Positions 10,723 to 12,612 of a stretch of 59,948 nucleotides of DNA are shown piece by piece. The stretch lies in assembly GCA_025359065.1 (NCBI GenBank), contig JANYHM010000067.1, positions 1 through 59,948 on the forward strand, read 5' to 3'. The notes beneath the pieces were generated by a model. It was given only the letters and a program-made list of their open reading frames with translations. It ran no database searches and had not been told where the DNA came from. The stretch is from Synechococcales cyanobacterium GL140_1_metabinner_5_sub (GTDB lineage: Bacteria; Cyanobacteriota; Cyanobacteriia; Cyanobacteriales; Chamaesiphonaceae). The position numbers and the translations under genes are program-made. Positions within the stretch are counted from its first letter, which is position 1; every line of letters starts with the position of its first letter.

Positions 10723-11850
10723 ATGGCTGGCTTACTTCCCAATATTGATCCTGATGGACTTTTAGAATATTCGGTTGTTTACACCGATCGGGCATTGAAC
10801 CACATGTCTCAGTCTTTTCAAAAGACGATGCAGGATATTTCCCGGTCTTTGAAACAGGTCTATAGCGCTCAGGCGGTGGTGATTGTGCCAGGGAGCGGCA
10901 CGTTTGGCATGGAGGCAGTAGCTCGGCAGTTTGCCACAGGTAAGAATTGTTTGGTGATTCGCAATGGTTGGTTTAGCTTTCGCTGGACGCAGATCTTTGA
11001 AATGGGCAGTATTCCAGCAAAGTCCACGGTGCTGATGGCACGTCCAGTAGATGATAGTGCTCAGGCCGCATTTGCTCCGGCTCCGATCCAAGAAGTCGTG
11101 GCAGCAATCAAAGCAGAGAAACCAGATGTGGTGTTTGCGCCCCATGTGGAGACTTCTGCTGGGTTGATATTGTCAGATGATTATATTAAGGCGGTGACGG
11201 CGGCAGTGCATGAGGTGGGCGGGATTTTTGTGTTGGACTGTATTGCATCGGGGACTATTTGGGTAGATATGGCGGCCTGTGGTGTAGATGTGTTGATCAG
11301 TGCGCCCCAGAAGGGTTGGAGTGGTTCACCTTGCTGTGGTTTGGTGATGTTAAGCGATCGGGCGTTAGAGCGACTGGAAGCAACCACAAGCACTAGTTTT
11401 GCCTGTGATTTGAAGAAGTGGTGGCAGATTATGCAGGCTTACGAGAATGGCGGCCATGCTTATCATGCAACGATGCCTACCGATGCTCTGACTGTTTTTA
11501 AGGATTTGATTAATGAAACTGGGGCTTTTGGGTTTAAGAAGGCTTATGAGGCACAGCAGGAATTGGGCGATCGGGTGCGGAATATTTTGCGGAGTAAAGG
11601 CGTAAAGAGTGTTGCCGCAGAAGGCTTTGAAGCACCGGGAGTAATCGTGAGCTATACCGATAATGCCGAGATTCAGTCTGGTAAGAAATTTATGTTGGCA
11701 GGGGTGCAGGTTGCTGGTGGAGTACCGTTGCGCTGTGGTGAGCCAGAACCTTTCCAGACGTTTCGTATTGGGTTGTTTGGCTTGGATAAGTTGAAAGATG
11801 TCGATCGGGCTGTGGCGAACTTAGAAGCTGTGTTAAATCAGATTTTCTAG
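10723..11850 (+). CDS. Class V aminotransferase (alanine-glyoxylate type)
   Basis: The protein has 375 residues. It is a fold-type I PLP enzyme of class V: the ligand loop is near PGSGTFGMEAV (56-66), the cofactor Asp lies in IFVLDCIASG (168-177), and the Schiff-base lysine is K197 in LISAPQKGWSG. Family members transfer amino groups between serine/alanine and glyoxylate or pyruvate, which in cyanobacteria fits 2-phosphoglycolate (photorespiration) recycling. The QKGWSG context is typical of the alanine-glyoxylate/serine-pyruvate group, but the amino donor cannot be fixed from sequence. The start is supported by GACAAGAGG 9 bases upstream. It is transcribed divergently from rsmB. Confidence 0.8.
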   Translation: MAGLLPNIDPDGLLEYSVVYTDRALNHMSQSFQKTMQDISRSLKQVYSAQAVVIVPGSGTFGMEAVARQFATGKNCLVIRNGWFSFRWTQIFEMGSIPAKSTVLMARPVDDSAQAAFAPAPIQEVVAAIKAEKPDVVFAPHVETSAGLILSDDYIKAVTAAVHEVGGIFVLDCIASGTIWVDMAACGVDVLISAPQKGWSGSPCCGLVMLSDRALERLEATTSTSFACDLKKWWQIMQAYENGGHAYHATMPTDALTVFKDLINETGAFGFKKAYEAQQELGDRVRNILRSKGVKSVAAEGFEAPGVIVSYTDNAEIQSGKKFMLAGVQVAGGVPLRCGEPEPFQTFRIGLFGLDKLKDVDRAVANLEAVLNQIF

Positions 11851-11981
11851 GCTATTTGGTGTCTAAAATATCAAAGTAATATTGTGCTGTAAAAGAACGG
11901 CTATTTTTTGGCGATGGGCAGCAACTTCTAAAAAAAAACTAAAGAATAGGAATTGTTTTATTTTTTTCAAAAAAATAGACA

Positions 11982-12047
11982 ATAAAAAAGAGAACCGACG
12001 ACTGGCCGTGTTTCGTCTCGGTTCTCTTTCTTATTTACTCCTCACAC
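11982..12047 (-). ncRNA. Predicted ~66-nt small RNA with anti-Yfr1 5' end
   Basis: Reading leftward, a consensus promoter (12054-12082) would start transcription at about 12047. The RNA begins GUGUGAGGAGU, continues through an A-rich single strand, and ends in a hairpin: 12018-12029 pairs perfectly with 11987-11998 (12 bp, GAGAACCGA core), followed by TTTTTTATT. No ORF fits. The first 11 nt (12047-12037) are the exact complement of ACUCCUCACAC, the invariant unpaired motif of the cyanobacterial small RNA Yfr1 (motif recalled from the literature). It could thus pair with Yfr1 or mimic a Yfr1 target. Promoter, unpaired 5' end and terminator are seen in the sequence; the RNA itself and its partner are inference. 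Confidence 0.55.
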
Positions 12048-12053
12048 TCCTTT

Positions 12054-12082
12054 AATATACATATCTCTGTTTAGAATGTCAA
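12054..12082 (-). promoter_or_regulatory. Sigma70-type promoter for the small RNA
   Basis: On the minus strand, TTGACA (12077-12082) and TATATT (12054-12059) are separated by exactly 17 bases, a perfect -35 box with a near-consensus -10 box. No protein gene lies downstream on this strand before the terminator at 11982-12029. Confidence 0.65.
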
Positions 12083-12145
12083 GCACTTAGAAAAAGATTT
12101 TTTGAATATCAAGCATAGTGCGCTGAGCACCCCTTTCGATCAGCT

Positions 12146-12201
12146 ATTATGGATAATAACACCTATAGATATTAATAAATGTAAGTATTATTGTCCATAA
12201 T
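12146..12201 (+). promoter_or_regulatory. Inverted-repeat operator upstream of AbiEi-like gene
   Basis: ATTATGGATAATAACAC (12146-12162) and GTATTATTGTCCATAAT (12185-12201) are inverted copies with 15 of 17 positions matching. They lie just upstream of the AGGAGG ribosome site (12203-12209) of the AbiEi-like gene. AbiEi antitoxins are known to repress their own promoters by binding paired inverted repeats, so this is probably that operator. The spacing of the arms (22 bases) fits binding on the same DNA face. Confidence 0.55.
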
Positions 12202-12213
12202 TTAGGAGGATAA

Positions 12214-12612
12214 GTGGTGGAAACAGCTTCAGTTAACGCACTGCGATCGATTCAAGCTCAAGGTCAATTCATTCGGACTGCTCAGGCTCTCAAAGCCGGT
12301 ATCCATCCCCGGACTCTCTATCAGCTCCGAGATAGTGGCTGTCTGGAGCAAATATCTCGTGGCGTTTATCGACTGGCAGTACAAGCCCCGATATCTGATC
12401 CCGACCTGTTTACAGTTGCTGCTCGGATTCCCCAGGGTGTAATCTGTTTGGTTTCGGCCTTAGCAATTCATCAGATTACTACTCAGATTCCTCGTGCGGT
12501 AGAGATCGCACTCTCTAGAGGAACAGAATCACCCAGACTCGATTACCCATCGATCGCTCTTCACCGTTTTTCTGCTGTAAGTTTTGCTGCCGGGATTGAA
12601 ATCTTTGACACT
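12214..12612 (+). pseudogene. AbiEi-type antitoxin/regulator, cut by IS605 element
   Basis: The first ~130 residues are an AbiEi-like protein: a winged-helix start (TAQALKAGIHPRTLYQLRDS), then GCLEQISRGVYRLA, then the conserved DLFTVAARIPQGVICLVSAL segment, and HRFSAVSFAAGIEIFD just before the break. The family would continue into a V-x-V-(Y/T)-x-PAKTVADC region, which is absent. Instead the frame enters the IS end and stops at 12672. GTG start(s) at 12214/12217 follow a strong AGGAGG. AbiEi proteins are type IV antitoxins for AbiEii nucleotidyltransferase toxins. No AbiEii gene is visible in the window beyond the IS, so the rest of the system may be deleted. Confidence 0.7.

Follow-up and report, generated by a model that had tools for sequence, protein, structure and literature searches.

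A Yfr2-family small RNA gene and its Yfr1 partner in a cyanobacterial genome

The minus strand between positions 12082 and 11979 of the window, as the whole 59,948-nucleotide stretch of DNA analysed here is called, reads by its sequence as a complete small-RNA gene, and its product is an ordinary member of the Yfr2 family, which occurs in most cyanobacteria. This RNA very probably comes from its own promoter and pairs through its 5' end with the core of another small RNA, Yfr1, thereby titrating Yfr1 and relieving the repression that Yfr1 exerts. Titration of Yfr1 by a sponge RNA, or binding of the RNA by Yfr1, had been proposed in a preliminary description of this DNA, and the proposal is supported by a match to the Rfam family Cyano-1, by perfect complementarity to the Yfr1 of the same genome and by the antagonism ascribed to Yfr2 in published work (PMC6778093; PMC6974561). 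That description missed that the family and the interaction have both been published, and the window locus is known biology. What the present analysis provides is the anatomy of this gene, its family membership, its complementarity to the genome's own Yfr1 and its conservation among relatives.

On the minus strand, a promoter scan recovered a -35 box TTGACA (12077-12082) and a -10 box TATATT (12054-12059), which are 17 nt apart and match 11 of 12 consensus positions. The promoter claimed at the outset, TTGACA-17-TATATT, is therefore confirmed, and it scores best among the six promoter-like sites found in 11800-12300, where 1.1 were expected. From the spacing to the -10 box, the RNA is predicted to start at about 12047, and the predicted transcript runs to about 11984. 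Folding places a stem-loop at 11981-12035, in which the arms 12035-12015 and 12002-11981 form 21 pairs with a single bulged base at 11999 and enclose a 12-nt loop, GAAACACGGCCA, at 12003-12014 (minus strand). The hairpin has an energy of -27.2 kcal/mol (z -4.75), and none of 200 shuffles was equally stable. A 12-bp terminator hairpin ending in TTTTTT had been claimed here, and both the hairpin and the TTTTTT are present, but the stem is longer, at 21 pairs, and since the TTTTTT occupies 11989-11984, the U-run lies partly within it. The long stem-loop probably serves as an intrinsic terminator as well; its absence from the output of a simple terminator scan is explained by that scan permitting loops of 3-8 only, when the loop of this hairpin has 12 nt. 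The loop also contains a GGCC palindrome (12007-12004, minus strand) that could permit loop-loop dimers.

The 5' end of the predicted RNA carries the single-stranded motif GUGUGAGGAGU (12037-12047, minus strand), which is the exact complement of the Yfr1 core and in which each of the 11 bases has an unpaired probability of at least 0.98 in the predicted fold, as the preliminary description had it. The match to GTGTGAGGAGT at 12047-12037 is the only one in the window at 0 or 1 mismatch; matches with one mismatch are unremarkable (mean 0.59 in shuffles), but the window match is exact. The earlier estimate of roughly 3 in 100 for a chance 11-mer was right, with 0.029 expected in 60 kb on both strands. 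Over the whole assembly the chance expectation rises to about 1.9, and GTGTGAGGAGT was found twice in its 3.92 Mb, with one copy opposite the core of yfr1 and the other at the 5' end of the window RNA, so that the telling feature is the position of the copies and not their number. Read on the other strand, the exact Yfr1 core thus occurs in the assembly only in yfr1 and opposite the 5' end of the window RNA, and a control with GTGTGAGGAGT read backwards gave 0 occurrences in the whole assembly.

The assignment to a family comes from Rfam, where Cyano-1 (RF01701) matches 12051-11979 of the minus strand at 46 bits, where the gathering score is 41, over model positions 1-69 of 69, and is the sole RNA family to reach gathering level within the window. 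In print, the Yfr2 family has Cyano-1 as its sequence motif (PMC8400943). The model consensus of Cyano-1 contains GUGUGAGGAGu, which makes the complement of the Yfr1 core typical of the family as a whole and not something special to the window locus. In the published description of the Yfr2 RNAs of model cyanobacteria (PMC2662882), the 5' end is conserved and unpaired, the central loop of 12 nt is conserved as well, and a bulge lies at position -4 from this loop; the highly conserved unpaired 5' end has been described as complementary to the Yfr1 core (PMC2662882; PMC2518516). The window RNA has all three traits, namely the unpaired 5' end, the 12-nt loop and a bulge after three pairs.

The partner was sought in the assembly of the same genome (121 contigs, 99.84% complete), as had been suggested for the strain's own yfr1, and one Yfr1 match (RF01116) was found, with 38.5 bits against a cut-off of 38. 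Its neighbours, on the same strand as the match, are frames for an IMP dehydrogenase (PF00478) on one side and a thioredoxin (PF00085) on the other, and judged by them it sits at the usual yfr1 site, guaB-trxA (PMC6778093). Both motifs are unpaired in the separate predicted folds, and a co-fold of the window RNA with its own Yfr1 pairs all 11 positions. The gain of the co-fold over the separate folds is 20.1 kcal/mol, which was reached by none of 500 shuffles of the 11-nt motif (mean 10.6, best 17.8). A cruder duplex measure, which ignores internal structure, set the motif apart less clearly, with 2 of 1000 motif shuffles equally good; the co-fold control was run afterwards.

Conservation was followed in 60 genomes, including that of the window (G000) and its sole genus mate among them (G001). 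The element is identical in the genus mate at 73 of 73 positions and both promoter boxes are unchanged, while the promoter spacer agrees at 8 of 17 positions and the 15 nt downstream at 9, which indicates that the transcribed part is what is held constant. A Cyano-1 match is present in 58 of the 60 genomes (36 above the cut-off) and a Yfr1 match in 59 (55 above the cut-off); G008 and G009, which are 77% and 91% complete, are without a Cyano-1 match, and G008 is without a Yfr1 match too. For comparison, 86 of the 96 listed Cyano-1 matches were extracted, together with the best yfr1 match of all 59 genomes. The ten Cyano-1 copies left out belong to G020, G021, G031, G033, G034 (two), G038, G043, G045 and G059, among which those of G031, G038 and G043 show the type B apex defined below by pattern, and a second, weak Yfr1 match of G018 was also left out. 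The 10-mer GTGTGAGGAG is present in 70 of the 86 loci and the loop sequence GAAACA in 84. The Yfr1 core is exact in all 59 best yfr1 matches, and it therefore offers no compensatory change by which the pairing could be tested; compensatory Yfr1/Yfr2 change was discarded as a test for this reason.

The extracted loci can be divided by the pairs beneath the loop into type B, with GAC-loop-GUC, and type A, which comprises the rest and is mostly GUC-loop-GAC (the labels are our own). Type B, to which the window RNA belongs, accounts for 41 loci in 39 genomes, and type A for 45 loci in 29 genomes. The 12 stem pairs nearest the loop are standard pairs in 489 of 492 cells in type B and 514 of 540 in type A, and when the partner is shifted out of register (1 to 3 columns in one direction, 1 to 2 in the opposite one), pairing falls to 23-68% and 36-54%, respectively. 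The 10-mer is found in 40 of the 41 type B loci, followed by C in 38 of them, and in 30 of the 45 type A loci, 16 of which carry the full 11-mer. Of the 11-nt complement claimed for this RNA, the first 10 nt are thus nearly fixed in type B, but the 11th matching base, T, occurs in only two of the 41 loci, those of the window's genus. The comparison of related strains proposed in the preliminary description went in favour of its reading, in that the genus mate carries an identical motif and the first 10 nt persist throughout nearly all of type B. The hairpin apex is conserved too, and the predicted drift of the loop is absent; 29 of the 41 type B loci have the exact apex, GGCC included. A TGACA precedes the motif by 34-38 nt in 35 of 41 type B loci, as against 4 of 45 type A loci (range 30-38 nt). 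Most type B loci (34/41) score below the Cyano-1 gathering score of Rfam. When 386 genomes drawn across the phylum were searched, the type B apex pattern was found in 95, all of the window's order or class, and many of the other genomes belong to other classes.

Contact between Yfr1 and Yfr2, and antagonism in a reporter, have been shown elsewhere with the RNAs of other cyanobacteria. Pairing of the two was proposed in 2008 for Prochlorococcus (PMC2518516), Yfr2 used as bait enriched Yfr1 and Yfr10 (PMC6778093), and in an E. coli reporter, which is a heterologous system, GFP under repression by Yfr1 was restored by Yfr2 (PMC6778093). In Nostoc, Yfr2 has been reported to bind Yfr1 in vitro in a gel shift, with negative regulation of Yfr1 by Yfr2 marked as hypothetical (PMC6974561). 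We infer the same antagonism for the organism of the window. Here, a stand-alone gene under a sigma-70-type promoter of its own would give an RNA that starts at about 12047 and ends in the long stem-loop, and its unpaired 5' end would pair with the unpaired ACUCCUCACAC core of the Yfr1 made from the guaB-trxA site. Such a duplex would mask the region of Yfr1 used for binding to mRNA leaders, so that Yfr2 would titrate Yfr1 and lift its repression of targets; Yfr1 would in turn occupy Yfr2, and the conserved 12-nt loop would be a likely second contact site. Against this reading stands the departure of 15 of the 45 type A loci from the 10-mer while Yfr1 is unchanged.

It is conceivable, although less probable than titration and compatible with it, that Yfr2 mainly uses the 12-nt loop together with the 5' end to regulate mRNAs or antisense RNAs directly, as targets of its own, and that it is Yfr1 that switches Yfr2 off. 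Targets of its own have been described for Yfr2, with regulators or antisense RNAs making up almost half of the enriched peaks, and it has been described as neutralisable by pairing with Yfr1 or Yfr10 or by RNase E, but in the reporter of the same study it is Yfr2 that overrides Yfr1 (PMC6778093). The counts given above also favour direct regulation, since the GAAACA of the loop is conserved no less strictly than the 5' motif.

The GAGGAG of the 5' end looks like a ribosome-binding site, and it could be argued that it merely belongs, as a Shine-Dalgarno-like stretch, to a leader or a small gene, with the match to Yfr1 incidental. This is highly improbable, as the next gene downstream (10723-11850, plus strand) faces the RNA, as 12047-11981 holds no open reading frame of more than 4 codons and only two ATG/GTG/TTG codons, with stops after 1 and 4 codons, and as the entire 10-mer, and not GAGGAG alone, is conserved in type B. 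Least probable of all is that the GGA motifs of the window RNA titrate a CsrA/RsmA-type protein in the manner of RsmY and RsmZ, which was proposed from the resemblance of GGA motifs in a paper that also reports no RsmA or RsmE homologue found in cyanobacteria (PMC2662882), and it was rejected here because a search for CsrA (PF02599) at E <= 0.001 found no match in this genome but gave one in 3 of 14 controls (E. coli, B. subtilis and T. maritima).

Besides the sequence of the RNA, the two types differ in their surroundings. Within 1 kb of type B, 25 of 39 genomes have a convergent frame of one family and 21 have a co-oriented frame of another family on the upstream side, with one or both in 31, whereas the best common neighbour of type A is present in only 3 of 29 genomes. 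Pfam searches with one example each identified the convergent neighbour as a HAD-type hydrolase (PF08282) and the upstream neighbour as a DALR-domain protein (PF05746); L150, L157 and L183 are among the type B loci. Eight of the 39 type B genomes have neither, the window's genus among them, and in the window's genome the relative of the hydrolase is on another contig and the RNA adjoins an aminotransferase gene instead. The genes for Yfr2 have been said to occupy unconserved loci (PMC6778093; PMC2662882), and the conserved neighbours of type B qualify this picture. Tentatively, and with more doubt than confidence, Yfr2 may be regarded as two kinds of gene, of which type B would be old, vertically inherited and mostly syntenic, with a consensus -35 box and a near-invariant 10-mer, acting as a constitutive, dedicated buffer of Yfr1, and type A would be mobile, often multi-copy and differently promoted, with a drifting 5' motif, serving regulated responses. 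A statement of this split was not found in the literature searched, a scope outside which fall the review of the Yfr2 family by Gierga et al. (2009) and supplements, and the split is not claimed as unpublished. The window locus itself adds little beyond the identification of a Yfr2 gene and its Yfr1 partner, and the comparison contributes a modest extra, a Yfr2 subtype that has a -35 box, often lies among conserved neighbours and is mostly under the Rfam cut-off. Should the synteny of type B be borne out, one and the same Yfr2 ortholog could be knocked out in different species and the results compared.

The aminotransferase gene beside the window RNA (10723-11850, plus strand) encodes a class-V enzyme. 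Among 80 loci kept of 440 with relatives of this protein, only two carry cyanobacterial titles (L032, the genus mate, at 95%, and L033, at 74%), and the remaining loci, at 68-75%, carry the names of Pseudomonas and other, mostly proteobacterial, organisms, a distribution that suggests acquisition of this gene by horizontal transfer. The opposite flank of the RNA carries an antitoxin-like frame of AbiEi_4 type (PF13338; 12214-12672, plus strand), which overlaps the end of an oppositely oriented frame for an IS605 OrfB/TnpB-type transposase (PF01385 and PF07282; 12614-13903, minus strand), and the antitoxin-like gene may have been cut by an insertion. The genus mate has a 134-aa frame with a PIN domain (PF01850, VapC-like; L235:3406-3810) between the aminotransferase gene and the RNA, so that toxin-antitoxin-like genes flank the RNA on opposite sides in the two genomes, PIN in the genus mate and AbiEi-like in the window.

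Copies of the RNA were also sought on mobile elements. The plasmid search gave no match, and that of phages gave weak ones of 25 nt (E 0.6) in 12 Gordonia phage records. Two loop patterns run against IMG/VR retrieved 1 and 2 stretches, none of them matched by Rfam at gathering level, and one of these (L233) falls within a 777-aa open frame. All three stretches were taken as chance; the Rfam cut-off misses most type B loci, and the lack of a gathering-level match is thus by itself no proof of chance.

Among known systems, Yfr1 (RF01116) is the partner RNA with the complementary core in the same genome, and the window element is a different RNA that bears the complement of that core. The Yfr10-type RNAs belong to the same published network as Yfr2 (PMC6778093) and carry the Yfr1 motif itself, not its complement. 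The closest likeness is to Yfr2/Cyano-1, from which the window RNA differs in two respects. Firstly, the 11th base (U), which completes the match to the Yfr1 core, is within type B confined to the window's genus. Secondly, the window's assembly contains a single Cyano-1 match (E <= 0.001), whereas yfr2 is described as multi-copy (PMC6778093); several copies per genome are usual in print and not defining, and over the 60 genomes exactly one copy was counted in 33, none in 2 and two or more in 25, under filters stricter than those of the single-genome search. With Yfr2/Cyano-1 the window RNA shares the unpaired 5' GUGUGAGGAG, the long bulged stem with its bulge after three pairs, the 12-nt GAAACA loop, a predicted promoter of its own and the organisation as a stand-alone gene.
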